Positions 29,416-50,553 are shown, counted from the stretch's first letter. The stretch: DNA of 56,700 nt from an uncultured Archangium sp. (GCA_903905455.1 CAIVGN010000065.1:1-56700); one strand, 5' to 3'. Numbers and translations: made by a program. The notes: generated by a model from the sequence alone, not told the origin.

Positions 29416-29446
29416 CTCGCTCCCACTTTTCGGGCGAGATTTTTTC
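29416..29446 (+). terminator. Rho-independent terminator
   Basis: CTCGCTC (29416-29422) pairs with GGGCGAG (29432-29438), seven pairs including one T-G wobble, around a 9-base loop. ATTTTTTCTCT follows at once. It ends transcription of the preceding secreted-protein gene and isolates the secretion-like locus that starts at 29536. Confidence 0.75.
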
Positions 29447-29535: not shown

Positions 29536-30093
29536 ATGAATCCCATGCGTCGTCGTTCCCGCAGCAGCCGTCGCGGTTTCAGCCTCATCGAACTCGGCAT
29601 CGTCATCGCCGTCATCGCCGTGTTGGCCGCCGTCGTCATCTTTGGCCGCGGCTTCATCCTGGCGGCCCGGGTCACCAAGGCCGTCGACGCTTCGAACACG
29701 CTGCGCAAGGCCGCTTCCACCTTCGCCGGCCTCAATGGCGGGTCGCTGCAGAACTTCAGCACCACCAGTCAACTCTCCGCGCTCTCCCAGCGAGCCCTGA
29801 TTCCGCCGCTGCCGGCGGGCCAGACGACCTGGACCGTCTCCGGCGCCCTGGGTTCGAATGACGCCATCTCCGTCACCGACGTGCGCTTCGGCCAGACGGC
29901 CGGCGCCACCGGCCAGGGCAATGCCATCGCCATTCGCGTCACCGCCCCGACTGCAGCCATGGCCCAGGACGTCTTGAGCGCCGTTCGCGACGACCGGAAC
30001 CTGGTCACCACCGCGCCCACCATCGGGCTGGCCTGCCAGAACCCTGCGGTGCCCGTCACGGCCCCCAACGTCGTCATCTGTTTCTTCCTGTAA
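29536..30093 (+). CDS. Type IV prepilin-like protein (pseudopilin 1)
   Basis: A 185-residue protein with a basic leader (MRRRSRSSRRG) and a class III signal G|FSLIELGIVIAVIAVLAAVV. Prepilin peptidase should cut after the glycine, leaving N-methyl-Phe, and glutamate lies at +5 as required for subunit assembly. The head domain (~140 aa) contains a Thr/Ala-rich region and ends in CQNPAVPVTAPNVVICFF, where two cysteines may form the D-region disulfide loop typical of type IV pilins. ATG at 29536 has GGAAGG upstream. It is the first gene of the secretion-like locus, 12 bp ahead of the first giant Cys-rich gene, and is probably its major or most expressed pilin. Confidence 0.85.
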   Translation: MNPMRRRSRSSRRGFSLIELGIVIAVIAVLAAVVIFGRGFILAARVTKAVDASNTLRKAASTFAGLNGGSLQNFSTTSQLSALSQRALIPPLPAGQTTWTVSGALGSNDAISVTDVRFGQTAGATGQGNAIAIRVTAPTAAMAQDVLSAVRDDRNLVTTAPTIGLACQNPAVPVTAPNVVICFFL

Positions 30094-30105
30094 CCGGTCT
30101 GGCTC

Positions 30106-33100
30106 ATGCTCAAGCTCGCGACCTTCGGCCTGGTGTGTCTGCTGTCCATGACCTTGGGTTGCGCGCGAACGCCTGAGTCCGCGGCCCCAGTCTCGGCCGC
30201 GGTGCCCTGCGTGGCTGGCGCGGGCGAAGACGGTGGGGTGTGCTCCCCGGGCCAGGTCTGCGGCTCCACCGGGTGCCGCGCCTGCCTCAGCAACGACGAA
30301 TGCGAGGGGGGCGCGAAGTGCTGCGCCGGCCAGTGCTCGCCGGTCGCCGCCTGCGCGGCCTGTTCCGCCGACCGCCAGTGCAGCACCGGCGAGGTGTGTT
30401 GTGGCGGCGCCTGCGTCGGTGGTGAGTGCTGTGCCGCCAGCGACTGCAACGGTCGGCGGTGCGAAGACCACCAGTGTGCCCCGGTGGCCTCGACCCGACC
30501 GTCTGCGGTGTCGTGCAGATCCAACGCCCAGTGTCCCGAGGGAAAGGCCTGCGTCGGAGGCGCCTGCGCTCCGTGCGCCGCTGACGCCCAGTGTGGCGCG
30601 GACGCGCGCTGCTGCGCCGGGGCCTGCGTGGCCGGCTCCTGCTGTGGCGATGCGGAGTGTGCGCGGGGCAAGTCCTGCGTGGGGAACTCCTGTGAGCGCT
30701 GCTCGGCGGACGTCGATTGCGGCTCCTCGGAGAAGTGTTGTGGTGGCTCGTGCGTTCCCGGCAACTGCTGCGGCAGCGGTGATTGCGAAGGGCGGGCCTG
30801 CCGACAGCATTCCTGCCAACCTTGCGCTGACTCGGCCCAGTGTGGTGACGGGCAGGTGTGCTGTGGTGGCCTGTGCAAGGCCGGGGCGTGCTGCTCGACC
30901 AACGACTGCCAGGCCGGCCAGGTGTGTCGCTCCGGTTCCTGCGAGGCGTGCCAGCGCGACGCCGAGTGCTCCACGGGATCACGGTGCATCCAGGGCGCCT
31001 GTATTCCTGACAGCGAATGTGGGGCGAACCTCGATTGTTCCGATGGCATGTGCACGGTGCGCGTCTTGCGACCCGTCGCCGTCGCCGCGCTCGGGGCCTC
31101 ATGCCAGCAGACGTCTGACTGCGGCTTCGCCGAGGTGTGCTGCGGCAATGTCTGCCTCAGCGGAGAGTGCTGCGGCGACGCGGAGTGCGCCGCGTTCGGC
31201 CTCCCATGTATTCAGAATGCCTGTCAGCCCTGTGCGGTCGATGCACAGTGTGGGGCAGGCCAGGTGTGCTGCAGTGGCAGTTGTCACGCGGGTGGTTGTT
31301 GTCCCGGCCAACTGTGCCCCTCGGGTCAGATCTGCAACGCCTACCAGTGTGCCGCCTGCGCCAACACGGCTGACTGTGGCCCCGGGCGGGTGTGCTGCAG
31401 CGGCGCGTGCCAGGACGGCAACTGCTGCACCAACGCCAACTGTGGGCAGTATGTCTGCCAGGGCAACTCGTGCGGCGCGTGCAACGCCGACGGCGACTGT
31501 GGCGCCAACGCCCGGTGCTGTAACGGCGCCTGCACGCCCAATGCTGCCTGCTGTGACAGTAACGATTGCCCCGCGGGCAAGGTCTGTCAGAACAATGCCT
31601 GCTCCAGTTGCGTGAACAACACCGACTGTGCCTCGGGCGACCGGTGCTGCAATGGTTCGTGTCGCCCCGGGAATTGCTGCACCACGGCCGATTGCCCAGG
31701 TGGCGCCACCTGCAACCCCAGTGGTTTTTGCGGTCTGTGCGCCTCCGACGCCCAGTGCGGTGCGGGCCAGAAGTGCTGTGCGGGCGCCTGCGTCAACGGT
31801 TCGTGTTGCAGCTCCACCGACTGTGCCTCGGGCCAGGTGTGTACCGGCAATTCGTGTGCTTCCTGCCAGTCGACACAAGATTGCGGGCGGGGCCAGATCT
31901 GCTGCAACGGTGGTTGTCAGACGGGGAACTGCTGTGTGCCCCCCGGCGCGGGACCCGCTACCGCCGATTGCAATGGGCTGATCTGCACGGGCAATGTCTG
32001 TACGCAATGCACCTCTGATACCGAGTGTGGCTCGGGTTCGAAATGCTGTCGCGGGGCCTGTTACGCCGGGGCTGTCTGTTGCAGCTCGACCGATTGCCCC
32101 GGGAGCCTGGCCTGCGTGCAGGGGGCCTGCTCGAGCTGCACTGCCGATTCGCAGTGCGGCGCGCTCAGTTGCTGTGATGACGATGGCGCCGGTCCCCTGC
32201 CGGGGCGCTGCAAGGCGTTCTGCTCCATCACCCAGACCTACAGCAACCTCGCCACCTTCAACCAGGGTACCTACAACGGCACCGTCGCCGCCGGCAGCAC
32301 CTTGAACCCTGCCTGTGCCGGCGCGCTGTGCTGGGCCGGTGAGAACGTGGTCATCAGCGTGCCCTACCTGTGGGTTCCCAACACCGGCGACGGCAAACTG
32401 TATCGCTACAACGTCAACACCGGAGCGATGGTCGGCGGCTTCAACGCCGGCGTGGTGTCCGGCTGGCCCGTGGACACTGGCACGGCCCCCGGGGCCAATA
32501 TCTCTCGCACCTCGGTCAACCCCTTCGACGCCACGGTCTGGGTCGCCGACCGCGATGGGCCGGGCGGCGGCGGGCTGGCGCACCTCGACTACGAGGGCCG
32601 CATGCTTTGTTATGTCCGGGTCAGCGGCGGCCCGCGGGCCGTGGCCACCGATGCCCAGGGCAATGCGTGGGTGGGCTCCTATTCCCCGGGGGTGCTTTAC
32701 AAGTACTCGGGGTCCGAGTTCGAACCCGGCAACGCCAACCCCAAGCAATGCAAGCTGATGGGCGCTCCCATTTCCCTCCCGGGAAACCCCTACGGGGCGG
32801 CCGCCGACAACAACAACTGGATCTGGGTCCAGGCGGGCGCGAGCAACATCATCGCCATCAACGCCAACACCGGGGCGTTGGAGAAACACTACAACGCCGG
32901 TTGCGCGCCCTACGGCATCACCGTGGACCAGGATTACGTCTGGATGGGGTGCTACGGCAGCAGCAACGTCAGCCGGTTGAGGAAGTCGGACGGCCACGTC
33001 GACCTCGCCGCGACCGGCGCCAACCCCCGCGGCATCGCGACCTCGGCCGACGGCTTCGTCTACGCCGGCGGCAACAACAACCAGGTGTTCAAGATCAATC

Positions 33101-33642
33101 GAAACACCATGGCGTTCTCGACGATCACCGTCCCGCTCTCGGCCGCCATCACCGTCGCCGTGGACAGCTCCAACCGGGTGTGGGCCGTCGACTACTATGG
33201 TCCGGTCGTCCGCATCGACACCAACGGCAGCCAGACCACCTTCGGCAGCGGGGGAAAAGCCCAGTACGTGTACACCGACCTGACCGGCCAGCAGACCGTC
33301 AACGCCGGGCTCACCCCGGGCCTGTGGAACGTCGTCAATGACGCCAACTACGCGACCCCGCACTGGACGCGGTTGAACCTGACCACCATCAAGCCGGCGG
33401 GCACCACCGTCTCGGCCCGCGTCCGCGTGGCCTCTTCCCAGCCCGCCCTCGCCACCACCCCGTGGTGGAACGGGCTGCTCCCGGCCGGCCAGTACCGGCT
33501 CGAGACGACCGGCCAGATCAGGCTCGACGACATCGCCGGGCTGCCCGCGGCGCGCTTCATCGAGGTCGAGGTGAAGCTGACGACCACCTCCGACACCGTG
33601 ACGCCCGTGGTCCAGTCCGTCTCTGCTTCCTGGGCCCCTTGA
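30106..33642 (+). CDS. Giant cysteine-repeat lipoprotein with C-terminal beta-propeller (Cys-rich protein 1)
   Basis: The 1178-residue protein starts with an N-terminal signal (MLKLATFGLVCLLSMTLGC), a lipobox-like end. Residues ~35-706 are about 16 tandem ~42-residue units of the form CxxDxQCxxGxxCCxGxCxxGxCCxxxDCxxGxxCxxNxCxxC; two units are degenerate, near 470-540 in nucleotide register 30510 and 30960. With about ten cysteines each they must form dense disulfides. Residues ~730-1060 show repeated strands such as WVPNTGDGKLYRYNVNTG, ATDAQGNAWVGSYSPGVLY and VDSSNRVWAVDYYG, a streptogramin-lyase/NHL-like propeller. The last ~110 residues form a beta-rich tail. The unit recalls Dickkopf/EB-type Cys domains, but I claim no homology. 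It sits between a prepilin and the secretion core, so it is probably exported or displayed by that system. Confidence 0.8.
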   Translation: MLKLATFGLVCLLSMTLGCARTPESAAPVSAAVPCVAGAGEDGGVCSPGQVCGSTGCRACLSNDECEGGAKCCAGQCSPVAACAACSADRQCSTGEVCCGGACVGGECCAASDCNGRRCEDHQCAPVASTRPSAVSCRSNAQCPEGKACVGGACAPCAADAQCGADARCCAGACVAGSCCGDAECARGKSCVGNSCERCSADVDCGSSEKCCGGSCVPGNCCGSGDCEGRACRQHSCQPCADSAQCGDGQVCCGGLCKAGACCSTNDCQAGQVCRSGSCEACQRDAECSTGSRCIQGACIPDSECGANLDCSDGMCTVRVLRPVAVAALGASCQQTSDCGFAEVCCGNVCLSGECCGDAECAAFGLPCIQNACQPCAVDAQCGAGQVCCSGSCHAGGCCPGQLCPSGQICNAYQCAACANTADCGPGRVCCSGACQDGNCCTNANCGQYVCQGNSCGACNADGDCGANARCCNGACTPNAACCDSNDCPAGKVCQNNACSSCVNNTDCASGDRCCNGSCRPGNCCTTADCPGGATCNPSGFCGLCASDAQCGAGQKCCAGACVNGSCCSSTDCASGQVCTGNSCASCQSTQDCGRGQICCNGGCQTGNCCVPPGAGPATADCNGLICTGNVCTQCTSDTECGSGSKCCRGACYAGAVCCSSTDCPGSLACVQGACSSCTADSQCGALSCCDDDGAGPLPGRCKAFCSITQTYSNLATFNQGTYNGTVAAGSTLNPACAGALCWAGENVVISVPYLWVPNTGDGKLYRYNVNTGAMVGGFNAGVVSGWPVDTGTAPGANISRTSVNPFDATVWVADRDGPGGGGLAHLDYEGRMLCYVRVSGGPRAVATDAQGNAWVGSYSPGVLYKYSGSEFEPGNANPKQCKLMGAPISLPGNPYGAAADNNNWIWVQAGASNIIAINANTGALEKHYNAGCAPYGITVDQDYVWMGCYGSSNVSRLRKSDGHVDLAATGANPRGIATSADGFVYAGGNNNQVFKINRNTMAFSTITVPLSAAITVAVDSSNRVWAVDYYGPVVRIDTNGSQTTFGSGGKAQYVYTDLTGQQTVNAGLTPGLWNVVNDANYATPHWTRLNLTTIKPAGTTVSARVRVASSQPALATTPWWNGLLPAGQYRLETTGQIRLDDIAGLPAARFIEVEVKLTTTSDTVTPVVQSVSASWAP
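30241..32223 (+). repeat. Tandem ~126-bp coding repeats (ten-cysteine units) in Cys-rich protein 1
   Basis: About 16 units, each roughly 42 codons, with conserved CC-x-G-x-C and CC spacing at the protein level. Neighbouring units differ a lot in DNA sequence, so they are old duplications and not a recent satellite. Units at about 30525 and 30960 have lost the double cysteine. Confidence 0.8.
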
Positions 33643-33671
33643 ACACCACCGCCCCCCGTCACGACCCAGCC

Positions 33672-36600
33672 ATGCCGCGCTCTGCCCACTCCCCCCAGTT
33701 CTCCGTTCTCCTGTGCGCGCTGTGTTGGTCGCTCCTTGGCCTGACGGGCTGCAAGACCGAAGCTGGTCCCGACGCCGGCTCCGGCTCGAAGTGTGACGTC
33801 GCCTCGTGTGCCACGGGCCAGGTGTGCAGCCTGCTGGGGTGCCGCGACTGCCGCCAGGACAAGGAATGCGGTGCCGACTCGAGGTGCTGTGCCGGCCGCT
33901 GCGTGCAGGGCGATTGCTGCGCCGGGGCTGACTGTGGTGGCGGCACGGTTTGCGCCGACTACCAGTGCTCGGCCTGCACCTCCGACCTGCAGTGCGCTGC
34001 CGGCGACCGCTGCTGTGGCGGGGCGTGCGTGACGGCCGAGTGCTGCACCAGCCCGGTCAGCGCCACCTGTGGCGGTGGGCCCTGCATCGGCGTCGATGGG
34101 GGTGGTGGTGCCTGCCTGCCTTGCTCCGACGACGGCCAGTGCGGCATCGGCAAGTGCTGTCCCCGCCTCGACGGCGGCACGGCCGCCTGCGTCACCGGGG
34201 ACTGCTGCGGTTCGTCTGACTGTGGCTCCGGTGGGTCCTGCATCGACAACTCCTGCAAGTCGTGCGTGGGGGACACCGATTGTGCCGGCGGCAAGTGCTG
34301 CAACAACCGCTGCCGGCCGGGCGCCACCTGCTGCTCCGGGTCCGACTGCGCGCCCAACACCGCGTGCCTGCTGGGGGCGTGCCGCGCGTGCACCTCCAAC
34401 GACGAGTGCGGCGCCGATGCCGTGTGCTGCGGCGGATCCTGCAAGCAGGGCAACTGCTGCGCGACGCCGGAGTGCGGCGTCGACCTGCAATGCGTGGGGA
34501 ACACCTGCGTCGCCTGCGGCGCGGACTCGGACTGTGGCCAGGGCAAGAAGTGCTGTGCCGGCCGCTGCGAAACGGGAGACTGCTGCGGTTCGGCAGACTG
34601 CGCCGGCGCGGTGTGTGTGAACAACGCTTGCCGCAACTGCGCCACTGACGCCCAGTGCGCCAACGGCCGTTGCTGCAACGGCGTGTGCCAGTCGGGCGCG
34701 GCCTGCTGCGCGTCTTCGGAGTGCCCAGACGCGAAGGCCTGCATCGGGGGGGCCTGCGCGGTCTGCACGTCCGATGTGCAATGTGGGGGGGGGGCCAGGT
34801 GCTGCAACGGGGCGTGCCGGGTGGGTGATTGCTGCGGCGACTCGCAGTGCGGCGTGGCCCAGTTCTGCGTCGACAACCGGTGCTCGGCTTGTTCCACCAA
34901 CGCCCAGTGCGGCGCCGGCAACGTGTGCTGCGCGGGGCAGTGCAAGGCCGGGCAGTGCTGTGGGGCTGGAGACTGTTCCCAGGGCGCGCTCTGCACCAAC
35001 AACGCCTGCGTCCCGTGCGCTTCCGACGCGCAGTGCGGTGGTGCCGCGGTCTGCTGCAATGGGAGTTGCGTCGTGGGCACCTGCTGCACCGCGGCGCAGT
35101 GCGGCGGTGCCGCGTGTCTGAACAACAGTTGTGATGCCTGCGTGGTTGATGCCCAGTGCGTGGGCGCCGACGGTGGTTCGGGTGGCAAGTGCTGCAACGG
35201 CGGGTGTCGGCCCGACGCGAACTGTTGCTCGAACAGCGACTGCCCGGGTGGAGCCTGCCTCAATGGCGTCTGCGGTGGCTGCTCCACCGATTCTGACTGC
35301 TCGACGGGTCAACAGTGCTGCGCCGGCACTTGTGCCGCAGGCGTGTGTTGCCAATCGGCAGACTGCGCGGCCGGTCAGGTCTGCGCCAACGGCCAGTGTG
35401 GCACTTGCTCCGATGACGCGCAGTGCTCGCCGGGGAGCCGGTGCTGTGGTGGGGCCTGCACCACCGCCCAATGCTGTTCTGGCGCCGATTGCCCGGGGGG
35501 CCTGTGCATGGCTGGCCAGTGCGCCGCCTGCACCCAGGACAGCCAGTGCGGGGCGGGCCAGAAGTGCTGCGGCGGTTCGTGTTCGACGGGCACCTGCTGC
35601 ACCGCGGCCGACTGTGGCGGTGGGGCCTGCGTGGGCCACAGTTGCGCCAGTTGTTCGGGCACCAATTCCTCGTGCAGCACCCAGGACGGTGGCGCGGGCC
35701 GCTGCTGCGGTGGCGGGTGCTTGCCGGGCAGTTGCTGTTCGGCCGACGACTGCGCCACGGGCCAGGTGTGTGCAGGTGGTGCCTGCCGGAGCTGCCAGTC
35801 CGATCTCGAGTGCGGCGCGGGCCTGAGCTGCTGCAACGGCGCCTGCTCGGCCGCGGCGTGCTGCGGCGCGAAGGACTGCCCGGCGGGCGAAGTGTGCAAG
35901 GCGGGTGACTGCCAGTCGTGCAACAACGCGCTCCAGTGCCCCGCAGGTTGGAAGTGCTGCGGCGGCACGTGCAGCCCCGCGGCCTGTTGTGTGGGCACCG
36001 ACTGCCCCAGCGGCGTCTGTTCCAACGGGGCCTGCGAGTCCTGCACTTCCGACTCGCAGTGCTCGGCGGGGAACAAGTGCTGCAACGGAACCTGCAAGCA
36101 GGGCACCTGTTGCAACAGCGCCGACTGCGGCGGCGCGGCGTGCTTCAACAACAGCTGCCAGACGTGCAGCGCGACCGCCCCGTGCGCCGCAGACCAGGTG
36201 TGCTGCAACGGGTCGTGCCTGCCTGGAGACTGTTGCAACAGCGCCGGCTGCCTCCCGGTGCGGCCGGTCTGCCTGGCCGGACGGTGCGAGCAGTGCACCA
36301 GCAACGCCCAGTGCGGCACGGGCAAGGTGTGTTGCGGAGGCCAGTGCCTGGCTGGCAGTTGCTGCGAAGGCGCTGACTGTGGCCCCGGGCAGGCCTGCAG
36401 GAACCACGTGTGCGGGGTGTGCTTCAGCGACAGCCAGTGCGCGACCGGGGAGGTCTGCTGCAACAACCAATGCAAGGCCGGCAGTTGCTGCACCGTGGGC
36501 GAATGCGCGGGGCTGACCTGCTCGGGCTTCGAGTGCGCGGCCTGCACCGCGTCGACGCAGTGTGGCGCCGGCAACCAGTGCTGCGGTGGTGATTGCCAGT

Positions 36601-37385
36601 CGGGCGCCTGCTGCGCGGCCAGCGACTGCAGTGGCGGCGCGGTGTGCGCGGGTGGGGCCTGCCAGCCCTGCCAGACCTCCGAGTCCTGTGGCGCGGGCAA
36701 GGTGTGCTGCTCCGGCGCGTGCGTGGCCGGTCAGTGCTGCTCGAACGCCGAATGTGGGGGGGGCCAGGCGTGCCTCAACAAGCAGTGCTCCGACTGCACC
36801 ACCGACCAGCAGTGCGGGGGCGGCAGCCGCTGCTGCTCGGGCCGTTGCGTGACGGGCGACTGCTGCCAGAACCCTGACTGCCCGGCCGGTGCGACCTGCA
36901 CCAACAACAGCTGCAGCAGCTGCCAACTCGACGCGGAGTGCCCGGCGGGGTTCCTGTGCTGCAACGGGGGCTGCAAGCGCGGCGACTGCTGCACCACGGC
37001 CACCTGCGCGGGCCGCGTCTGCACGGGGAACGAGTGCCAGGCCTGCACCAACTCCGCCCAGTGCGGCAGCGGCTCCGTCTGCTGCAACGGGCTGTGTGCT
37101 GCGGGGAGCTGCTGCAACGCGGCGGACTGCCCCGGGGGCCAGCAGTGCCGGGGGAACCAGTGCGTGGCCTGTTCGGGCGACGCCGACTGCGGCTCGGGCT
37201 CGGTCTGCTGCGGTGGGAGCTGCGTGGCAGGCTCCTGCTGTACCTCGCAGGACTGCCTGGGGGCCCAGGCCGGCGGGGCGTGCCTCGGCCATCGCTGCGA
37301 GCCGTGCGCAACGAACAGTCAATGTGGTTCACGAATGTCGTGCTGTGACGGTGGCTCGTGCGCGGTGCAGGGCGCGTGTCGCTGA
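33672..37385 (+). CDS. Giant cysteine-repeat lipoprotein (Cys-rich protein 2)
   Basis: From ATG at 33672 the product has 1237 residues. A signal peptide ends in LLGLTGC, a good lipobox, so it should be anchored by lipid. Almost all the rest, ~40-1237, is 27 full units plus a shortened last one of the same ~42-residue, ten-cysteine repeat as the preceding gene (example core: CGAGNVCCAGQCKAGQCC). There is no propeller domain. The longer open frame begins inside the previous gene and is not used. The two genes are 29 bp apart and must be co-expressed. A protein this rich in cysteine needs periplasmic oxidation, and could form an extended rigid rod or mesh. The tract of ten G at 34785-34794 lies in frame and may be prone to slippage. 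Confidence 0.82.
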   Translation: MPRSAHSPQFSVLLCALCWSLLGLTGCKTEAGPDAGSGSKCDVASCATGQVCSLLGCRDCRQDKECGADSRCCAGRCVQGDCCAGADCGGGTVCADYQCSACTSDLQCAAGDRCCGGACVTAECCTSPVSATCGGGPCIGVDGGGGACLPCSDDGQCGIGKCCPRLDGGTAACVTGDCCGSSDCGSGGSCIDNSCKSCVGDTDCAGGKCCNNRCRPGATCCSGSDCAPNTACLLGACRACTSNDECGADAVCCGGSCKQGNCCATPECGVDLQCVGNTCVACGADSDCGQGKKCCAGRCETGDCCGSADCAGAVCVNNACRNCATDAQCANGRCCNGVCQSGAACCASSECPDAKACIGGACAVCTSDVQCGGGARCCNGACRVGDCCGDSQCGVAQFCVDNRCSACSTNAQCGAGNVCCAGQCKAGQCCGAGDCSQGALCTNNACVPCASDAQCGGAAVCCNGSCVVGTCCTAAQCGGAACLNNSCDACVVDAQCVGADGGSGGKCCNGGCRPDANCCSNSDCPGGACLNGVCGGCSTDSDCSTGQQCCAGTCAAGVCCQSADCAAGQVCANGQCGTCSDDAQCSPGSRCCGGACTTAQCCSGADCPGGLCMAGQCAACTQDSQCGAGQKCCGGSCSTGTCCTAADCGGGACVGHSCASCSGTNSSCSTQDGGAGRCCGGGCLPGSCCSADDCATGQVCAGGACRSCQSDLECGAGLSCCNGACSAAACCGAKDCPAGEVCKAGDCQSCNNALQCPAGWKCCGGTCSPAACCVGTDCPSGVCSNGACESCTSDSQCSAGNKCCNGTCKQGTCCNSADCGGAACFNNSCQTCSATAPCAADQVCCNGSCLPGDCCNSAGCLPVRPVCLAGRCEQCTSNAQCGTGKVCCGGQCLAGSCCEGADCGPGQACRNHVCGVCFSDSQCATGEVCCNNQCKAGSCCTVGECAGLTCSGFECAACTASTQCGAGNQCCGGDCQSGACCAASDCSGGAVCAGGACQPCQTSESCGAGKVCCSGACVAGQCCSNAECGGGQACLNKQCSDCTTDQQCGGGSRCCSGRCVTGDCCQNPDCPAGATCTNNSCSSCQLDAECPAGFLCCNGGCKRGDCCTTATCAGRVCTGNECQACTNSAQCGSGSVCCNGLCAAGSCCNAADCPGGQQCRGNQCVACSGDADCGSGSVCCGGSCVAGSCCTSQDCLGAQAGGACLGHRCEPCATNSQCGSRMSCCDGGSCAVQGACR
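33790..37384 (+). repeat. Tandem ~126-bp coding repeats (ten-cysteine units) in Cys-rich protein 2
   Basis: Twenty-seven full units and one partial, about 42 codons each; unit length varies a little (a Gly-rich insert near 34090, an insert near 35670). Codon use differs freely between units, so selection has kept the amino-acid spacing and not the DNA. Confidence 0.82.
34785..34794 (+). repeat. Homopolymer tract of ten G inside Cys-rich protein 2
   Basis: The sequence TGTGGGGGGGGGGCC reads Cys-Gly-Gly-Gly-Ala. Ten G is the longest G run I saw in the window; an eight-G run lies in the same gene at 36756-36763. Gain or loss of one base would shift the frame and end the protein early. It is also a place where the assembly could be wrong. 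Confidence 0.7.
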
Positions 37386-37413
37386 CTACGGCCGGAAGAG
37401 GAGCTCAAAGAAC

Positions 37414-38952: not shown

Positions 38953-38962
38953 GGAGACGCGG

Positions 38963-40183
38963 ATGAAGAAGTTGATCATCATCAGCGCCTCGCACGTGTG
39001 GGTCGAGGGCGCGCCCCGGCTCATGACGGTCGACGAGGTGCTGGCCCAGTCCTGGGCCAAGGCCGGCACCCTGCTCATCGCGGTGACGCCGTCGGAGGTC
39101 GGCCGGGTGTTGGCCACGGTGCGGACGCTCGACTCGGCGGTCACGCAGCAGTACCCGGGCGAGAACAGCTATTCCACGCTGCTGCTCGAGCCCAACGTGT
39201 ACCAGGTCTACGTGGCGCCCGACGAGCTGCTCAACCGGCTGCGCAAGCTGGGCCGGGACGTGCGCATCGTCCCCTTCCCGGCGGCCGTCTTGACCGAGGT
39301 GCTGGGCGAGACCCGCGAGAAGTCCTTCATCGAGAAGACGCAGATCTTCCTCAGCGCGCCGTCGCTGCGCGCCCCGGCGGACGCGGTGGCCAAGGAACTG
39401 GTGGTCATCGACACCGTCGGCGACCAGTTCTTGATCACCGCCATCCGCCACCGCGAGGTGGTGGCGGTGCGCGTGGCCCAGGGCGACGTGGTCACCGAGT
39501 TGCAGCGCACGCTGGCCGGCACCCGCATGGAGTCGCCCACCGTCATCTGCCGGGACGAGGAGTTGTCGCTGGACCTGCGCGCGGTGGGTTTCGTGGTGGA
39601 GCTCGCCACCGGGCCCGGCGACCTCATCGGCGCCTCGGCGCTCAAGCTGGTCGAGGGGCAGCGCTTTCTCAACCAATTCGAGGTGGCCCAGCGGCGCGCG
39701 GTGCAGTCCCGGCGCAAGGCCCTCAGCTTCCTGATGGTGAGCGTGGTGCTGTGCGTGGTCATGGCCTCCGGGTGGCTCTTCTTCCGCGCCCGCGAAGCCG
39801 TGGCCAGGACCGAGAGCGCCCGGCTGACCGCGCTCAAGGACGAGCAGATCGCGACGCTCATCGGGCTCAACCAGGAGCGCTACGGCTCGCTGGCGCGCGC
39901 GCAGTCGCTGCAGATCCGCGAGGAGTTGTTCGACCTGAGCATCAGCCTGCCGCCCCAGGTGGTCCTGTTGAGCGTGCGCAAGGACGAGCAGGGGCTGTCC
40001 GCGGTGGTGGAGCGCCGGCCCCAGGCGGCCCCTTTCTCGCGGGACGACCTGCGCATCGCGTTGTCCACGTCGCCGGCCTTCGCCCGGGCAGAGATCAGCG
40101 AAGAATACGAAGGCCACATCATCCGCTACCTGCTCAAGGTTCCCCCCGCGGCACTGCCGGTGCCGCCCACCCCCTCGAAGTGA
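38963..40183 (+). CDS. GspL-like / fused PilM-PilN-like inner-membrane assembly protein
   Basis: The 406 residues divide into a cytoplasmic domain (~1-250) with alternating strands like an actin-type fold but without a clear ATP-binding signature. One transmembrane helix follows (~255-275, FLMVSVVLCVVMASGWLFF), then a coiled coil with many Glu/Arg/Leu residues (~278-320) and a small periplasmic ferredoxin-like domain. This is the layout of GspL in type II secretion, and of PilM plus PilN joined in one chain. It would connect the ATPase inside to the periplasmic partners. The ATG at 38963 follows GAGGAG, just behind the secretin stop. Assignment is by architecture and place in the operon, not by sequence motif. 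Confidence 0.65.
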   Translation: MKKLIIISASHVWVEGAPRLMTVDEVLAQSWAKAGTLLIAVTPSEVGRVLATVRTLDSAVTQQYPGENSYSTLLLEPNVYQVYVAPDELLNRLRKLGRDVRIVPFPAAVLTEVLGETREKSFIEKTQIFLSAPSLRAPADAVAKELVVIDTVGDQFLITAIRHREVVAVRVAQGDVVTELQRTLAGTRMESPTVICRDEELSLDLRAVGFVVELATGPGDLIGASALKLVEGQRFLNQFEVAQRRAVQSRRKALSFLMVSVVLCVVMASGWLFFRAREAVARTESARLTALKDEQIATLIGLNQERYGSLARAQSLQIREELFDLSISLPPQVVLLSVRKDEQGLSAVVERRPQAAPFSRDDLRIALSTSPAFARAEISEEYEGHIIRYLLKVPPAALPVPPTPSK

Positions 40184-40186
40184 CGC

Positions 40187-40693
40187 ATGCCACTCATCTA
40201 CGCAGTGACCCTGATCCTGATGGCGCTCTCGGCCTGGCTGGGCGTCGAAGCCAGCGACGCCTATGACGCCGCGGAGGCGGCCCAGGGGGTCAACCTCACG
40301 CTCGAGGGAGAACTCCAACAATTGGCGCTCGACCGGGCCCGGTTCGATCACCTGGTGCCCGGGCCCCTGCGCTTCAATGCCGACGCCCTTTCCGACTTCT
40401 ATTCGCGGGTGATGGAGGCGGGCGAGGTGCTGGGGGCCGGGGTGCGCGTGCAGTCGCGCGACGCCGACACCGGCATGACGGCGCTGGTCTTCCAGGACCA
40501 GGGCCAGGGGGTCGGGGTGTGCCGGGTGACGCTGCACGCGGCCATCGAGGGCGATGACGCCACCCCGGTGTTGGCGATGTTCGAGGAAGAGCTGGCAGAG
40601 CTGCCGGTGACGGTTCGAACGGTGGCCGCCCGGCGCGTCTCCGCGGACATCGGGCTGACCATGGACGTCGACATTTTCGGGAGGATGCAATGA
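40187..40693 (+). CDS. GspM/PilO-like inner-membrane protein
   Basis: A 168-residue protein with one N-terminal transmembrane helix (PLIYAVTLILMALSAWLGV), a helical segment (~22-60) and a small alpha/beta domain (~75-165). Family members pair with GspL/PilN through such periplasmic ferredoxin-like domains. It begins 3 bp after the GspL-like gene and overlaps the next gene by 4 bp, the same position GspM or PilO would take. No sequence signature proves it; the assignment rests on size, topology and gene order. Confidence 0.55.
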   Translation: MPLIYAVTLILMALSAWLGVEASDAYDAAEAAQGVNLTLEGELQQLALDRARFDHLVPGPLRFNADALSDFYSRVMEAGEVLGAGVRVQSRDADTGMTALVFQDQGQGVGVCRVTLHAAIEGDDATPVLAMFEEELAELPVTVRTVAARRVSADIGLTMDVDIFGRMQ

Positions 40694-41205
40694 GCACGAG
40701 GCTGTGGGCCGTAGTGGCGTTGATCACCGTTCCGGTGGGCACGCAGGCAGAGGAGCCCCGGAAGGACAAGGGCGAGACCGTCGAGACGCGGGTCGCCGCG
40801 CCGCAGTCTCGAGAGGTGATCGAGCGCCTCAAGACCATGCGCGCGCAGCTGCTGCTCGACCAGGAATACAACCGCCTGCTCGAAGCGCGGGTCAAGCGCA
40901 TGGAGTTGGAAGAGAAGCTGGGGGTCGAGGGCGCGGAACTCAAGGGAGGGAAGCGGAGGGCCGACGACCTTCCCCGGCCTCCCCCGCGCAGCATCTCGGC
41001 GCCCCCCGCGGCACTCGATGTCTCGGGCCCCAGGGACCTGGTCGTCAAGTCGGTCACGGTGGCGCCCTTCAAGGAGGCGTTCGTCGTCTACAAGGGCCGG
41101 GTGTACACGGTGCGGCCCGGCGACCAGATGGGTGACCTCACGATCAAGGACATCACCGAGAACGGCGTCGTCACCAACCGCTCTGCCGTCATGATGGAGC
41201 CGTGA
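40690..41205 (+). CDS. PilP/GspC-like periplasmic protein
   Basis: This 171-residue product has a signal peptide (LWAVVALITVPVGTQA), a long charged helix likely to be a coiled coil (~40-85) and a proline-rich linker. A small beta domain (~118-170) contains AFVVYKGRVYTVRPGDQMGD and LTIKDITENGVVT. That last part is the 'xxYKGxxYxVxxGDxxG...ItxItxxgV' pattern of PilP/GspC homology-region domains, which dock onto the secretin's N-terminal ring. It therefore probably links the inner-membrane platform to the secretin. The overlap with both neighbours keeps it in the coupled operon. Confidence 0.62.
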   Translation: MSTRLWAVVALITVPVGTQAEEPRKDKGETVETRVAAPQSREVIERLKTMRAQLLLDQEYNRLLEARVKRMELEEKLGVEGAELKGGKRRADDLPRPPPRSISAPPAALDVSGPRDLVVKSVTVAPFKEAFVVYKGRVYTVRPGDQMGDLTIKDITENGVVTNRSAVMMEP

Positions 41206-41207
41206 CC

Positions 41208-43052
41208 ATGGCGGTTCCCCCCAAGCCGGCGTCTCCCCAGCGTCCATCGTCACCTCCCAAGCCGGCCGCCGAGTCTGCCCCCCCGCCCGTCGCGCAGCCC
41301 AGGGCCCCGGCCCCCCGGCTGCCTCCGGCGGCGCCGGGCCGCGGAGGGCGGCTCCACCTGGGCGAGATGCTGCTGCACGCCGGGGTGATCAACCAGGCGA
41401 AGCTCGACCAGGCGCTGAGCATGGCGCGCCGCAACAACGAGCGCCTGGGCTCGGTGTTGATTGCCAACGGCTTCGCGCGCCCCGAGGAGATCGCCAAGAC
41501 GCTGGCGCAGCAGTTTCGCGTGGCCTACCTCGAGCCGAACCGGGTGAAGGTGGAGATGGTCGATCGCGAGGCGGTCACCCTCGTGGGCATCAAGGTGCTC
41601 AAAGAGCGCAAGATGCTGCCGCTGTTGTCCCGGGGGCGCCCGCAGCTGCTCCTGGGGGACCCCCTCGATACCCAGGGCACCGACCAGGTCGAGGCGGTGC
41701 TCGGCAAGCGCGAGTACGTGATCAGCACCACGAGCGCGATCGAGATGGTGCTGCAGATCATCTCGTTCGAGACGGTCGACGCCGACCAGATCGTCGAGAG
41801 CGCGCGCGACAGCATCGAGGCCGGCGAGGTCAACGCGCTCTTCCAGTACATCCTCGCCAAGGCGGTGCTGGAAAAAGCCAGCGACGTCCACATCGAGCCC
41901 AGCGCGAGCACCTCGGTGGTGCGGTACCGCATCGACGGCGAGATGAAGGTGGCGCTTTCCATTCCCCGCACGCGCCACGACAACCTCGCCAACGTGATCT
42001 ACGGCATGGCCGGGGTCGACCTGTCCGACTTCGGGCGGCTCCACGACGGGCGCTTCTCCTTCGCCTTCGCCGGTCGCAAGCTCGACATCCGCTTCGCCTC
42101 CAGCCCCACGGTCGAGGGGCCGATGATGGTGATGCGTATCCTCGACGATACGCGCTCGTTGGCGACGCTGGAGGAGCTGGGCTACGCGCCGTGGAACCTC
42201 ACGGCCATCGACCAGCTGTTGCGGTACCCTTTCGGTCTGGTGCTGGTCGTCGGGCCCACGGGCTCGGGCAAGACCACCACGCTCTATTCGTGCCTGAGCC
42301 GCATCAACGACGGCGCCACCAAGATCCTCACGGTGGAAGACCCGGTCGAGATCCGGGTGCCGTCGGTGCAGCAGGTGCAGGTCAACGAGAAGGCCGAGGT
42401 GACCTTCGCCCGCTCGATTCGCGCCTTCCTCCGCCAGGACCCCGACGTGATCCTGGTGGGCGAGATCCGCGACGAGGAGACCGCCCGGGAGGCCTTCCGC
42501 GCGGCGAACACCGGCCACCTCGTCTTCTCGACGCTGCACGCCAACTCGTCGGTGGAGGCCATCGGTCGCCTGATGGACCTGGGCATGGACCCCTACCAGG
42601 TGTCGACCACGCTGCTGGGGTCGCTCTCCCAGCGCCTGATGCGCAAGGTGTGCAAGTACTGCGCGAAGCGCGTGTCGCTCAACCCCGCCACCCTCATTCC
42701 CGAGCACGCCGAGAACCTCTTCGGCGCCGGGCGGGTGCCCACCGCGCCCTTCGAGGTCTTCGAGCAGGGGACGGGCTGCGAGAAGTGCAGCGGGGGCAAC
42801 GCCGGTCGGACGGTGGTGGCCGAGGTGATGCTGCTTGAAAAGTCGGTGCGGGAGCTCATCTACCAGCGGGCGTCGAACCAGCAGGTCGTCCAGGCCGCGC
42901 GCGAGCACGGGTTCCGGACCATGACCGACAACGCCCTGTGGATGTTGGTGAAGGGGGAAGCCTCGCTCAAGGAGATCGAGGCGACCATTGGCCCGGTGAC
43001 CCTGGCTCGGGGCAAGCGCGGCGATCGAACTCAGAACGGAGGGACACCATGA
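41208..43052 (+). CDS. GspE/MshE-type assembly ATPase with MshEN domain
   Basis: A 614-residue hexameric motor of the PilB/GspE family. A Pro/Ala-rich head (~1-47) precedes an MshEN domain (~48-150) with two copies of the LGxxLxxxGxIxxxxLxxAL motif; the second begins RLGSVLIANGF. The motor domain shows Walker A GPTGSGKT (349-356), Asp-box, Walker B ILVGEIRDEETA and His-box TGHLVFSTLHANSS. Two CxxC pairs (CKYC and CEKC) make the zinc-binding C-terminal element. MshEN domains in MshE bind cyclic di-GMP, so the machine may be switched by that messenger. ATG 41208 is preferred for its spacing to GGAG; a GTG at 41202 overlapping the previous stop is possible. Confidence 0.93.
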   Translation: MAVPPKPASPQRPSSPPKPAAESAPPPVAQPRAPAPRLPPAAPGRGGRLHLGEMLLHAGVINQAKLDQALSMARRNNERLGSVLIANGFARPEEIAKTLAQQFRVAYLEPNRVKVEMVDREAVTLVGIKVLKERKMLPLLSRGRPQLLLGDPLDTQGTDQVEAVLGKREYVISTTSAIEMVLQIISFETVDADQIVESARDSIEAGEVNALFQYILAKAVLEKASDVHIEPSASTSVVRYRIDGEMKVALSIPRTRHDNLANVIYGMAGVDLSDFGRLHDGRFSFAFAGRKLDIRFASSPTVEGPMMVMRILDDTRSLATLEELGYAPWNLTAIDQLLRYPFGLVLVVGPTGSGKTTTLYSCLSRINDGATKILTVEDPVEIRVPSVQQVQVNEKAEVTFARSIRAFLRQDPDVILVGEIRDEETAREAFRAANTGHLVFSTLHANSSVEAIGRLMDLGMDPYQVSTTLLGSLSQRLMRKVCKYCAKRVSLNPATLIPEHAENLFGAGRVPTAPFEVFEQGTGCEKCSGGNAGRTVVAEVMLLEKSVRELIYQRASNQQVVQAAREHGFRTMTDNALWMLVKGEASLKEIEATIGPVTLARGKRGDRTQNGGTP

Positions 43053-43594
43053 AGAATCGTCTTGTCGTCGCCGGTGGTCTGCTGGTCGCGGGAGCTGGCT
43101 GCAGCCTGTTCGCCAACCCGCCCGTGGAATGTGATCCCAACCGCGAGGCGGTGGTGCAGTTGGAGCAGACGGTGTCGCCGGCTCGCGCCGGGCTCCCCTG
43201 CGCCTTCGTCGACCCGTACCCCTTCACGGTCGCCTACGCGCCCCGCGTCGACCGGCTCGCCCTTGCGGAGTCGGCCCCGGGGACCCCCGCGTCGGCTGAT
43301 TCGGTGCTGATCGGCGGCGCGGTGAAGGTGACGCAGAGCAGCGCCGCCACCCGCCTGTGCGCGAGCGTCGAGGACGCCTGCGCCAACGGAGGGGCGCCGG
43401 AGATCGCCACCACCATTCGCGGCGACGGGAGCCTGGCCTACCAGGGCCTGTTCTCGGTGGACGCGCTCGGGGTGGTGCTCAACCCCGGCGACAGCTACAG
43501 CTGGACCGGGGTGGTGGCCACGGAGATCTTCGGCCCCGGCAACAGCTGCCCGGTGAAGGGCTCCGTCACCTTGACCTGCCAGAAGCCCCAGTAG
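43049..43594 (+). CDS. Operon-associated lipoprotein, possible pilotin or pilus accessory
   Basis: The 181-residue product has a signal peptide ending in LLVAGAGC; the residue at -3 is not the usual Leu, but the small residues and Cys suggest lipidation. The mature part is predicted as a beta sandwich (VRLTQ-like alternate strands from ~80 on) with three cysteine pairs (ECDPN, PCAFV, RLCAS...DACAN, NSCPV...LTCQK). It lies between the ATPase and GspF genes, coupled by ATGA to the former. In other systems a lipoprotein in this place helps the secretin reach the outer membrane (pilotin), but nothing here resembles a known pilotin in sequence. Confidence 0.6.
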   Translation: MKNRLVVAGGLLVAGAGCSLFANPPVECDPNREAVVQLEQTVSPARAGLPCAFVDPYPFTVAYAPRVDRLALAESAPGTPASADSVLIGGAVKVTQSSAATRLCASVEDACANGGAPEIATTIRGDGSLAYQGLFSVDALGVVLNPGDSYSWTGVVATEIFGPGNSCPVKGSVTLTCQKPQ

Positions 43595-44779
43595 ATGCAC
43601 TACCGCTACCAGGCCATCGGCAAGTCGGGGCGCTTCATCGAGGGCAAGGCCTCGGCCGAGGACATCGCCGTGCTCCGGGGGGACCTCGCGCGCTCGGGGC
43701 TCTCGCTGGTGGACGCGCGGCCCGACGTGGTCGCGGTGCTGGCTGCGTCGCTCAAGCCCTCCAGCCTCTCTCCGGCGGTGATGATCGACGTCTTTGGTTT
43801 CTTGCGGGGCCTGCTGGCCATGGGCATCGACATGGTCACCGCCTGGGAATCGGTGGGTGACGCGCTCACCAGCCAGGTGGCCAAGGAGGCCTGCTCCTCG
43901 ATCCAGGCGTCGATTCGGGCCGGGTACTCGCTGGCCGACGCGATGGAACGGGTGCGGGTCTTCCCCCAGCTGGTGATCGGCAACGTGAAGGCCGGCGAGA
44001 TGTCCGGCAAGCTCGAGAAGGTCTTCGGTTCGCTGGAGGACACCTACCGGCAGCAGCAGGCCCTGACGCAGCAGGTGCTCAAGGCGACGATGTACCCGCT
44101 GATCTCGGTGGTGGTGCTGTTCTTCATCGCCGTGGGCCTGCTCGCCGGCGTGGTGCCGCAACTCAAGGAGATCTTCCCCCCTCACCCTCCGTGGCCCACC
44201 CGCATTCTCGTGTTCTTGTCGGAGTCGGTGGTCGGCTACTGGTGGACGGTGCCCTTCGTGGCCTGTTCCCTGGGGTTCGGCTGGTGGCGCATGCCGGACC
44301 GCTACAAGACCCGCGTCTGGGAACTGTTCTACCGGGCGCCGGTCTTTGGGGAGCCGCTGAAGAACGTGGTGCTCTCGAACTGCTTCGACAACCTGGCGCT
44401 GATGCTCGACGCCGGCGTGCCGCTCACCCAGTCGTTGCGCATCGTGGCCGACGCCGTGTCCTCCCGCGCCCTCAAGGTGCGGCTCGAGTACATCCTCTCG
44501 AACATCGAGAAGGGGGGGCGCCTGTCCGATGGGTTTCGCGACCCTTTCTTTCCGGCGGTGACCGCGGGGGTGATGGCCCAGGGTGAAATGATCGGGGCCA
44601 TCGACGCCTACTTCAAGCGCCTCTCGGGCTTCCTGCGCGACCGCGCCCAGGCGCGGTTGCTGACGCTCTCCACCCTCATCGAACCGCTGCTGCTCCTGGT
44701 GGGCGGCGGCATGTTGATGCTGCTGGCGGTCGGCATCTTCCTGCCGATCTACGGGCAGATGAAGAACATCGGGCACTGA
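43595..44779 (+). CDS. GspF/PilC-type polytopic inner-membrane platform protein
   Basis: The 394 residues show two copies of the T2SSF cytoplasmic helical domain (~65-175 and ~270-380), each followed by a membrane helix, with a further helix in the middle (LISVVVLFFIAVGLLAGVVP, VVGYWWTVPFVACSLGFGW, LLLLVGGGMLMLLAVGIFLPIY). The repeat signature MYPLI and LMLDAGVPLTQSL / ALMLGAG-type segments match GspF. The protein is the base on which pilins are assembled by the ATPase. ATG directly follows the previous stop (TAGATG). It is the last plus-strand gene of the locus and converges with the three-prepilin operon across 34 bp. Confidence 0.92.
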   Translation: MHYRYQAIGKSGRFIEGKASAEDIAVLRGDLARSGLSLVDARPDVVAVLAASLKPSSLSPAVMIDVFGFLRGLLAMGIDMVTAWESVGDALTSQVAKEACSSIQASIRAGYSLADAMERVRVFPQLVIGNVKAGEMSGKLEKVFGSLEDTYRQQQALTQQVLKATMYPLISVVVLFFIAVGLLAGVVPQLKEIFPPHPPWPTRILVFLSESVVGYWWTVPFVACSLGFGWWRMPDRYKTRVWELFYRAPVFGEPLKNVVLSNCFDNLALMLDAGVPLTQSLRIVADAVSSRALKVRLEYILSNIEKGGRLSDGFRDPFFPAVTAGVMAQGEMIGAIDAYFKRLSGFLRDRAQARLLTLSTLIEPLLLLVGGGMLMLLAVGIFLPIYGQMKNIGH

Positions 44780-44813
44780 GCGACGACGCCCCGCAGGGGG
44801 CCATGCCCTCCCC

Positions 44814-45470
44814 TCACGGGGGGCACTTGAGCGTCCCGCCCGGGCCGCTGGGCACGGGCACCTTCCCGTTGCAGGCCTGGAGCAGGTTGGCGCCCGGCTT
44901 GGGGACGAAGCTGCAGCAGCGCACGTAGCCAGCGGGCAACGCCGTGGCCGAGGGCGGACACCCGGCCCCGCAGCTCGACTGGGGCAGGTACGAGATGAAG
45001 GCCTCGGAGATGGTCAGCGGCACGCTGGTGGAGACGCCGAAGAGGCACGCCGGGGCGACCGCCCCCGCGGGGGCGTACACGCTGACCTCGTAGGCCTGTG
45101 CCCAGGGGTTCTGCATGAAGGTGGGGGAGCCCTGGGCCATGGGGTTGGCCGGGCCGGCGCCGCTGGTGAGGTAGCCGCCGCTGAGCACGTCGAGGAGGAA
45201 CTTCCCCTTGGTGTACCCGGTGCTGCAGTAGCCGGAGGCGTTCTCACCGGGCCAGCGGTTGGGGTTGTTGGCGTTCTGGACGTAGAAGAGTCGGGCCGCG
45301 TCGTGAATCAAGGCCACGTCTCCGGCGGCTTTCTCGGCCATGCGGTTGCGCATGGTCTCGATGATGTCCGGCACGATGGCCCCCGCCAGGATGGCGGCCA
45401 CCCCGATGACGATGCCCAGCTCGAGGAGAGTGAAGCCGCGGCGCGCTCTGGTTCGACGGGTCAATTTCAT
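44814..45470 (-). CDS. Type IV prepilin-like protein (pseudopilin 4)
   Basis: A 218-residue protein with basic leader RRTRARRG and signal G|FTLLELGIVIGVAAILAGAIVP; Glu is at +5. The head domain contains several cysteines (NASGYCST, PACLFG, QSSCGAGC, RCCSF, LQACNGK, GTLKCPP), more than usual for a pilin, echoing the disulfide-rich character of the locus. It is the last of a three-gene minus-strand operon, 6 bp behind its neighbour. Which pseudopilin role (major, tip or bridging) it plays cannot be told; the long head makes a minor, tip-located subunit likely. Confidence 0.82.
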   Translation of the reverse strand: MKLTRRTRARRGFTLLELGIVIGVAAILAGAIVPDIIETMRNRMAEKAAGDVALIHDAARLFYVQNANNPNRWPGENASGYCSTGYTKGKFLLDVLSGGYLTSGAGPANPMAQGSPTFMQNPWAQAYEVSVYAPAGAVAPACLFGVSTSVPLTISEAFISYLPQSSCGAGCPPSATALPAGYVRCCSFVPKPGANLLQACNGKVPVPSGPGGTLKCPP

Positions 45471-45476
45471 GCGGCG

Positions 45477-46202
45477 TCAGGGCCTCATCGGGGTGTCGGT
45501 GAACAGCGGGGGGAGCGACTGTACGGTGCTCGGGTCGTCGGCGGCGTAGCTGTACTTGAACTGCGCCGACTCCCGGTGGAACACGGGGGTGGAGACCAGC
45601 AAGCACCTCGTCGGCTCCCCGGTGAGCGGGGTCGGGGCGGTGCACGCACCGCAGTCGAGGGCTCCGGCAAACCCAGCAGAGCCCAGCTCGTCCTGGGGGA
45701 CGCAGGTCAGCACCTCGGCCCGCGTCGGATAGAGGCAGACCACGAAGGGTTCACACCAGGCGTTGAAGCCGTTGCCGTAGACCGTGCTGCCTCCGCCGAA
45801 CATCGCCAGCAGGGGCGACCCGGCCGGCACCGCGCTGACGGTCGGGAAATAGGTGAAGTTGCTCCACGGGGCCCCGGCATTCCCGGTGGCTGGGCAGAGG
45901 GCGGCGGCGTTGGGTGCCCGCGACAGATCGTAACAAAGGGGCGCGGTGCCGGAGAGGGGCACCGAGGCGGCCGCGCCGGTCGGGCGAAAGCGGAAGAGGC
46001 CGGGGTTCTGCCGGTCGATGACCAGGTTGCGCTTGAGCGCCGCCGCTGCCGAGCGCGAAATCGAGAACAGCTCCTTGCCGGTGCGCTCGGAGCGGGCGCC
46101 CTGGTTGGCGCCCTTCATGGTGGCGGCGATGGCCGTCAGCATGATGATCGCCACCCCGAGCACGATGCCCAGTTCGAGCAGTGTGAAGCCCCTCCTGCGC
46201 AC
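45477..46202 (-). CDS. Type IV prepilin-like protein (pseudopilin 3)
   Basis: The 241-residue product has a very short leader, MRRRG, followed by FTLLELGIVLGVAIIMLTAIAATM, so cleavage leaves a mature protein with Glu+5. The head contains six or more cysteines, including CYDL, LCPAT, WCEPFVVC and DCGAC. It is the middle gene of the minus-strand prepilin operon, 3 bp after pseudopilin 2. Its large head resembles those of minor pilins that start or cap filaments. Confidence 0.82.
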   Translation of the reverse strand: MRRRGFTLLELGIVLGVAIIMLTAIAATMKGANQGARSERTGKELFSISRSAAAALKRNLVIDRQNPGLFRFRPTGAAASVPLSGTAPLCYDLSRAPNAAALCPATGNAGAPWSNFTYFPTVSAVPAGSPLLAMFGGGSTVYGNGFNAWCEPFVVCLYPTRAEVLTCVPQDELGSAGFAGALDCGACTAPTPLTGEPTRCLLVSTPVFHRESAQFKYSYAADDPSTVQSLPPLFTDTPMRP

Positions 46203-46205
46203 GGC

Positions 46206-46700
46206 TCACCTCATGACGACGGAAAAAGTGGTGCCGTTGCAGGTGGCGCTCACGGCCTTGTCTTGCAGGCTGGCCACCAGGTACGGCGGGCTGCCGGCGC
46301 ACTCTTCAGCGGGCACCGGCATGTCGATCTTGATGCAGGCAAACTCGGCGCAGGTGGTCCCCGCGGTGTGAGGCGTGACGATGATGTTGGGGTCGGCCCA
46401 GGGCGTGGTCACGTTGGTGGGCAGGAAGCCTTCGGCTCGCAGCCCCTTGAGGGTCACGTTGGCCGGGTCGTTCTGGCTGACCGAGATGCCGTAGGACAAC
46501 CCCTTGCGATGCCGTAGCGAGAACTGCTGAGAGGCCTTGCGGATGGTCAGCACCAGCTCCACGGCCGTGCGTTCCCGCGCGGCCCGGAAGTAGCCAGCGC
46601 TGCTGATCACCACGACCGCCAGGATGGCGATCACCGCCAACACGATGCCCAGTTCGACCAGCGAAAAGCCGCGCGGCACCTTCTTGCTCGAAACAGCCAT
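46206..46700 (-). CDS. Type IV prepilin-like protein (pseudopilin 2)
   Basis: A 164-residue prepilin: leader KKVPRG, then FSLVELGIVLAVIAILAVVVISSAG with Glu at +5. Three cysteines in the head (TCAEFACIK, EECAG, SATCNG) could form a C-terminal loop. It heads the minus-strand operon of three prepilins, facing the plus-strand core genes. No clear promoter was found in the 81 bp between it and the preceding nuclease-like gene, so transcription may read through from there. Confidence 0.84.
   Translation of the reverse strand: MAVSSKKVPRGFSLVELGIVLAVIAILAVVVISSAGYFRAARERTAVELVLTIRKASQQFSLRHRKGLSYGISVSQNDPANVTLKGLRAEGFLPTNVTTPWADPNIIVTPHTAGTTCAEFACIKIDMPVPAEECAGSPPYLVASLQDKAVSATCNGTTFSVVMR

Positions 46701-48849: not shown

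Positions 48850-50553
<1,704 letters not shown>

Follow-up and report, generated by a model that had tools for sequence, protein, structure and literature searches.

Gene organization of the locus

The stretch of DNA analyzed here, referred to below as the window, is an entire contig (C65) of 56,700 nucleotides from the genome of an uncultured Archangium species (8.6 Mb, 97.8% complete), and its relatives in public collections are metagenome-assembled genomes labelled Myxococcaceae, Archangiaceae or Myxococcales bacterium. It carries a gene cluster for an envelope machine that resembles type II secretion systems (T2SS) and mannose-sensitive hemagglutinin (MSHA) pili, and embedded in this cluster are the genes for two giant cysteine-rich lipoproteins, CysA and CysB (Table 1). 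Ten plus-strand genes (29536-44779) form a tight run, neighbors being separated or overlapping by no more than 29 bp, in the order prepilin 1, CysA, CysB, secretin, L, M, P, ATPase, small lipoprotein and GspF, and by position their spacing is as in one operon. Three further prepilin genes on the minus strand (44814-46700) are convergent with the ten-gene run. Taken together, the cluster suggests a dedicated system for the surface placement of stalk proteins.

A preliminary description of this DNA had listed the same kinds of genes. All four prepilins were recovered, one on the plus strand and three on the minus strand, and the ATPase, the small lipoprotein and GspF are present approximately where they had been located. 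It had also closed off the left side of the locus with a terminator. A bulged hairpin is indeed followed there by the only run of six thymines in the window, but a generic scan missed the element, and shuffled sequences fold as well as the wider region does. The terminator is therefore probable, not proven.

Table 1. Features of the filament machine locus; positions are counted from the first nucleotide of the window.
Position	Strand	Feature	Evidence
29416-29445	+	Probable intrinsic terminator, left boundary	Bulged hairpin, -9.8 kcal/mol, then TTTTTT
29536-30093	+	Prepilin 1, 185 aa, first operon gene	Pfam N_methyl; TIGR02532 above cut-off
30106-33642	+	CysA, lipoprotein (SMTLGC), 11 ten-Cys units, beta-propeller, small C-terminal beta domain	
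30361-32130	+	Ten-Cys repeat region of CysA, residues 86-675, 11 units	Regular expression
32365-33243	+	Predicted beta-propeller of CysA, residues ~754-1046	AlphaFold2, Foldseek
33672-37385	+	CysB, lipoprotein (LTGC), ten-Cys units only, 1237 aa, 23 units	Regular expression, lipobox
37414-38952	+	MshL-like secretin, 512 aa	Pfam Secretin 94 bits; TIGR02519 175 bits (cut-off 250)
38963-40183	+	GspL-like protein (L), 406 aa	AlphaFold2 fold: PilM, cyto-EpsL, GspL
40187-40693	+	GspM-like protein (M), bitopic, 168 aa	Between L and P, N-terminal transmembrane segment, clade conservation
40690-41205	+	PilP/GspC-like periplasmic protein (P)	Weak TraP_IncI1 and pilP_fam matches; clade conservation
41202-43052	+	Assembly ATPase (E) with N-terminal MshE-type c-di-GMP motif	Pfam T2SSE 345 bits; NF053729 53.9 bits (cut-off 38)
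43049-43594	+	Small lipoprotein, 181 aa, possible pilotin	Lipobox GAGC
43595-44779	+	GspF/PilC platform protein (F)	Pfam T2SSF 154 bits
44814-45470	-	Prepilin 2, 218 aa, Cys-rich	GFTLLELGIV; GspG model 31 bits, below cut-off
45477-46202	-	Prepilin 3, 241 aa	N-terminal RRGFTLLELGIV; orthologs in G004, G014, G137
46206-46700	-	Prepilin 4, 164 aa	TIGR02532 above cut-off

The giant lipoproteins CysA and CysB

Both giants start with an N-terminal lipobox (SMTLGC in CysA, LTGC in CysB) and contain repeats of a ten-cysteine unit of 39-43 residues, C-x5-C-x5-CC-x3-C-x4-CC-x4-C-x4/5-C-x4-C, in which all ten cysteines are kept across 26 aligned units. With a loose regular expression, 11 units were counted in CysA (1178 aa, 155 cysteines) and 23 in CysB (1237 aa, 283 cysteines); shuffled versions of the two sequences gave on average 0.005 and 0.87 units, with maxima of one and four, respectively. 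The unit is a disulfide-type repeat that has no match in Pfam, NCBIfam or the sequences of the PDB. Its arrays, which can exceed 20 units, are likely to form a surface rod and parallel the cysteine-repeat stalk of the kin receptor TraA. CysB as a whole has no Pfam or NCBIfam match at E values up to 10 and no relative in a PDB sequence search. Neither giant ends in a MYXO-CTERM-like tail.

The characterization of both proteins as giant ten-cysteine-repeat lipoproteins stands with regard to lipoboxes and units, but for CysA it overlooked a predicted propeller. Here the repeats occupy only about 58% of the protein, in its N-terminal part, and the character of the sequence changes after approximately residue 700. 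The following region (residues ~754-1046) was modelled by AlphaFold2 as a beta-propeller, with predicted local distance difference test (pLDDT) values mostly of 70-90 from a four-row alignment. The predicted propeller matches virginiamycin B lyase and the propellers of surface lipoproteins (Foldseek E ~1e-11, TM-score by target 0.6-0.7) and reaches 31 bits, below the cut-off, with the Pfam model Vgb_lyase; since the fold is widespread, the match says nothing about the activity of CysA. The C-terminal beta domain was modelled with low confidence (pLDDT <60) and is therefore given no fold, and five ten-cysteine units in the same model reached a pLDDT of only ~70-79.

Components of the machine

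The locus combines GFxxxE prepilins, a PilB/GspE-type ATPase, a PilC/GspF platform protein and a secretin, the features of the type IV filament superfamily. All four prepilins of the locus carry Glu5, and none of them matches a GspK model, though a GspK-type gene may lie elsewhere. The secretin had been called MshL-type, and MshL is indeed its best NCBIfam model, though at 175 bits it stays below the cut-off of 250.2; it scores 87 bits with GspD (cut-off 351) and 71 with PilQ. With the secretin as query, viral contigs yielded no relative. For the L protein, neither a sequence match nor a relative in a PDB sequence search was found, and its assignment as GspL-like was confirmed by the predicted fold (mean pLDDT 80), which consists of an actin-like domain, a long helix spanning the membrane and a ferredoxin-like C-terminus. 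Foldseek matches the actin-like domain to cyto-EpsL/GspL and PilM at E values between 1.9e-7 and 2.8e-7. Structural comparison gives Z scores of 12-14, including 14.3 for cyto-EpsL and 13.8 for GspL from the GspE complex, and the values for PilM and FtsA are similar. The name GspM-like for the following protein agrees with its position, size and conservation, but no profile hidden Markov model (HMM) matches it. A periplasmic protein is present in the place of the proposed GspC-like component, for which PilP/TraP-like is the better name. The small lipoprotein, which likewise has no HMM match, is kept between E and F in four related genomes (G004, G014, G025 and G137).

The ATPase scores 410 bits with the PilB model (cut-off 675.65) and 395 bits with that for GspE (cut-off 630); both values are below the cut-off, and it therefore belongs to neither equivalog. 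Its MshE-type motif for cyclic diguanylate (c-di-GMP) also exceeds the cut-off of NF053729 in loci L027, L068, L073 and L075, and the machine is probably regulated by this messenger. The locus contains no retraction ATPase, PilY1, prepilin peptidase or second ATPase. Nor were MshN, MshM or a separate MshI or MshJ recognized in the interval 29536-46700, where the L protein is a fused one, and no PilY1 or MshQ domain was found.

In a maximum-likelihood tree, the ATPase of the window and four orthologs form one clade (support 96/92), the sister group of which consists of three sequences from other Myxococcota classes. Clade and sister group together stand apart from the T2SS and type IVa pilus (T4aP) ATPases of the same genome (100/99); of these, the GspE (L002) passes its cut-off with 740 bits and the PilB on contig C113 with 786 bits. 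Judged by its gene content, the machine is a type IV filament system that falls under none of the curated definitions of T2SS, MSHA and T4aP. Six clades of bacterial type IV filaments are distinguished in a 2023 review, according to which MSHA has been found in just a few Proteobacteria (PMC10191384). Among the open-licence literature, no paper describing the machine was found. Two further PilB/GspE-like ATPases of the same genome (L005, G000:C125 and L006, G000:C40) fall far short of every curated cut-off and may be parts of further filament systems not yet described.

Comparison with known systems

The T2SS with its lipoprotein substrates PulA and InvL shares with the locus the fused GspL-type protein, a GspM-like protein, GspF, the ATPase, several prepilins and the link of large lipoproteins to the system, and here too the locus has no retraction ATPase. 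It differs in that secretin and ATPase of the locus stay far below the cut-offs of the GspD and GspE equivalogs, a PilP-like protein stands in place of GspC, neither GspN nor GspK was recognized in the locus, and the lipoproteins are unrelated. The MSHA system of Vibrio, with MshE, MshL and the putative adhesin MshQ (PMC7096442, PMC10191384), likewise counts a gene for a putative adhesin among its components, provides the best secretin model and has the c-di-GMP motif of MshE; however, the secretin of the locus is below the MshL cut-off, its L protein is fused, MshN and MshM were not found, and its giants are ten-cysteine lipoproteins.

A cysteine-rich repeat stalk with a surface binding head that is exported by a T2SS is found in TraA of the myxobacterial TraA/TraB system (PMC3325183, PMC11980579); CysA would resemble it in these features. 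TraA has TIGR04201 repeats, a PA14 head and a MYXO-CTERM anchor, whereas CysA has a unit without NCBIfam match, a predicted propeller head and an N-terminal lipid anchor. The module of PilY1 and minor pilins of T4aP resembles the locus in that a propeller protein is encoded beside a prepilin, PilY1 itself carrying a propeller. Unlike PilY1, CysA has no PilY1-type Pfam match, is a lipoprotein by sequence and bears a ten-cysteine stalk; moreover, the ATPase is below the PilB cut-off and has no PilT partner in the locus. In view of PulA and InvL, MshQ and the T2SS-exported TraA, the statement of the preliminary description that no described type IV pilus or T2SS has such partners was too strong.

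Distribution and co-occurrence

Members of the ATPase clade turned up in four of 40 relatives and members of the secretin clade in five of 147 genomes of the class. Loci were taken as informative for synteny when the contig continues past the secretin, as in the window, G025, G137 and G133; G014 and G004 were left out of the count because their contigs break, the former starting inside the secretin gene and the latter breaking in the L gene. In all four informative loci, which stem from four genera and two families, ten-cysteine giants are encoded directly upstream of the secretin. G025 has a CysB ortholog (49% identical) and a divergent CysA ortholog, with a third cysteine-rich lipoprotein (713-residue frame) between them. 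In G137, a CysB ortholog (60% identical over 1246 columns) and then the end of a CysA ortholog lie directly upstream of the secretin, and in G133 a CysA ortholog precedes the secretin.

A prepilin-1 ortholog opens the run of giant genes in each of these loci and immediately precedes a giant gene in G025, G133 and G137. In the latter two it resides on a second contig, followed by CysB in G133 and by CysA in G137, and these contigs likely join those with the machine genes. Two other regularities did not hold up: prepilins 2-4 are not always convergent with the run, their equivalents in G025 and G133 being divergent and upstream of prepilin 1, and a single prepilin was rejected as a clade marker, the prepilins cross-matching one another.

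Across 59 family genomes searched with a unit profile (A9), arrays of at least three units per reading frame occurred only in the genome of the window (G000), G004, G133 and G137, that is, in four of the five carriers of the machine versus none of the 54 other genomes (Fisher p 1.1e-5, with relatedness ignored). The remaining carrier, G014, gave one weak unit match, and the 54 genomes without the machine had at most two units per frame. In the genome of the window, the unit matches were all on the window contig, among the matches listed. The claim that the repeat proteins go with this clade of machines is thus upheld by all four informative loci and by the absence of arrays of at least three units from the family genomes without it. 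What emerges is a rare group of myxobacteria in which an envelope machine clusters with very long, cysteine-rich, rod-like lipoproteins, long arrays being found only in these genomes.

The association is not exclusive, however. G137 encodes further ten-cysteine lipoproteins on contigs other than that of the machine, one (L107; C588, 7180-10260) with stalk, beta domain and another C-terminus, and one (L108; C141, 112-4182) with stalk, a propeller-like part, an EGF-like region and a He_PIG Ig domain. In G004, a member of the same genus, a ten-cysteine lipoprotein gene (L076; C694, ~4973-5457) starts at the contig end and adjoins glycosyltransferase/polysaccharide-type genes, as read by eye, rather than prepilin 1. 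These additional proteins make the giants a family and not only two locus-bound genes, which looks like a common ten-cysteine stalk with varied heads.

In three genomes from other Myxococcota classes, a sister machine has the same gene order, secretin-L-M-P-E-F, with an ATPase ~51-52% identical to that of the window and a secretin that reaches 205 bits with the MshL model. Near one of these sister machines (L073, G194:C312; 12448-16686) are two minus-strand genes, for a cysteine-rich protein with six EGF-type domains and for a Lamin Tail Domain protein, which are perhaps different disulfide-rich partners of the sister machine.

Proposed function and alternatives

Our preferred reading, to which we give about an even chance, is one of export: the locus would encode a T2SS/MSHA-like type IV filament machine dedicated to carrying a family of giant lipoproteins with disulfide stalks to the cell surface. 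The giants would be lipidated in the inner membrane, and each unit of 39-43 residues would fold with about five disulfides, so that a rod arises. Responding to c-di-GMP, the ATPase would then power a short filament that moves the folded lipoproteins through the secretin, and the exported giants would remain attached to the outer membrane. In CysA, the stalk would carry a propeller head that serves as receptor, adhesin or binding module; CysB, having no head, would act as a rod or scaffold, and the additional ten-cysteine paralogs of G137 would be further clients. Synteny, co-occurrence, the tight gene run, the fold of the L protein, the separate ATPase clade, the MshE-type motif and the satellite genes in G137 argue for this export, together with precedents: T2SS export the surface lipoproteins PulA in Klebsiella and InvL in Acinetobacter (PMC12802150), and the T2SS of Myxococcus exports TraA (PMC11980579), the cysteine repeats of which are thought to be a rigid stalk (PMC3325183).

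Several observations weigh against it. In Acinetobacter baumannii, lipoproteins that take the T2SS route depend on GspN and on a motif rich in Gly/Ser or Asn/Asp behind the lipobox (PMC12802150), and in Myxococcus xanthus matrix lipoproteins follow a +7 Ala rule, lysine at +2 resembling inner-membrane lipoproteins (PMC3222651). No gspN-like gene was recognized in the locus, nor was a GspK-like prepilin or a PDZ domain. The residues from the lipid cysteine onwards, CARTPESA in CysA and CKTEAGPD in CysB, do not fit the A. baumannii motif, sorting rules differing between species; they do not fit the M. xanthus rule either, and CysB with its lysine at +2 is inner-membrane-like. Lysine at this position would, however, be compatible with extraction from the inner membrane in the manner of PulA. 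Furthermore, the three genomes with the sister machine have no ten-cysteine unit at E 1e-6. The repeats therefore belong to one subclade, and the giants were either gained by the machine in one branch or lost from the other; with a sister machine free of ten-cysteine proteins, they may not have been part of the ancestral machine. The proposed tie between repeat genes and core genes accordingly holds for one subclade and not for the sister machine or the extra ten-cysteine proteins of G137 and G004.

The chief alternative, which we consider less likely, is a true MSHA-like surface pilus with CysA and CysB as accessory adhesins or as priming, tip or base proteins like MshQ or PilY1, the propeller of CysA sitting at the tip like that of PilY1. 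It would account for a secretin closest to MshL, an ATPase with the MshE-type motif, giants that adjoin prepilin 1 in all informative loci and a predicted propeller in CysA, and MSHA does have the putative adhesin MshQ, the loss of which lowers surface pili (PMC7096442). Yet N-terminal lipidation, as predicted for both giants, is unusual for a pilus tip protein, CysB consists of a stalk only, no PilY1 or MshQ domain was found, and neither MshN nor MshM was recognized in the locus. Sequence cannot decide between an export machine and an adhesive pilus. Clearly less probable still is that the machine makes its own pilus and that the giants, co-inherited with it and functionally related to surface adhesion, reach the outer membrane via Lol and a flippase or via the general T2SS of the same genome. 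The ten-cysteine lipoproteins outside the machine contig in G137 and next to polysaccharide genes in G004, the canonical T2SS ATPase of the genome and the mismatch of the post-lipobox residues with the known T2SS lipoprotein motif are in line with such a route, against which stands the absence of arrays of at least three units from the 54 family genomes without the machine. That the giants are ordinary cysteine-rich myxobacterial lipoproteins next to the machine by chance is very improbable: weak cysteine-rich matches do occur elsewhere in the genome, but the conserved position of the giants across two families at ~50-60% protein identity, the genome-wide co-occurrence and the restriction of the listed unit matches to the window contig strongly disfavor it.

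If the giants are indeed exported by the machine, it would represent a new subtype of the type IV filament superfamily with its probable client encoded in the same operon, and the handling of large folded lipoproteins by such machines would become directly testable in a myxobacterium. A more specific version, which we put forward tentatively and regard as possible rather than probable, is a distinct Myxococcota subtype that in the class Myxococcia became a dedicated assembly line for ten-cysteine stalk lipoproteins, CysB as the stalk and CysA as the headed stalk, with interchangeable heads sharing one exporter in some genomes.

Neighboring genes

A gene for a Ser/Thr kinase (48850-50553, minus strand) lies within ~2.2 kb of the prepilin genes of the window, and a Ser/Thr kinase is also encoded just past a prepilin gene in the sister loci L073 (9733-11349) and L075 (6608-8065). 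The similarity of the three proteins is at the level of kinases in general (31-34%). On the other side of the locus, a minus-strand gene (23006-26188) encodes a 1060-aa protein with Ig-like domains of the ASH/HYDIN type.

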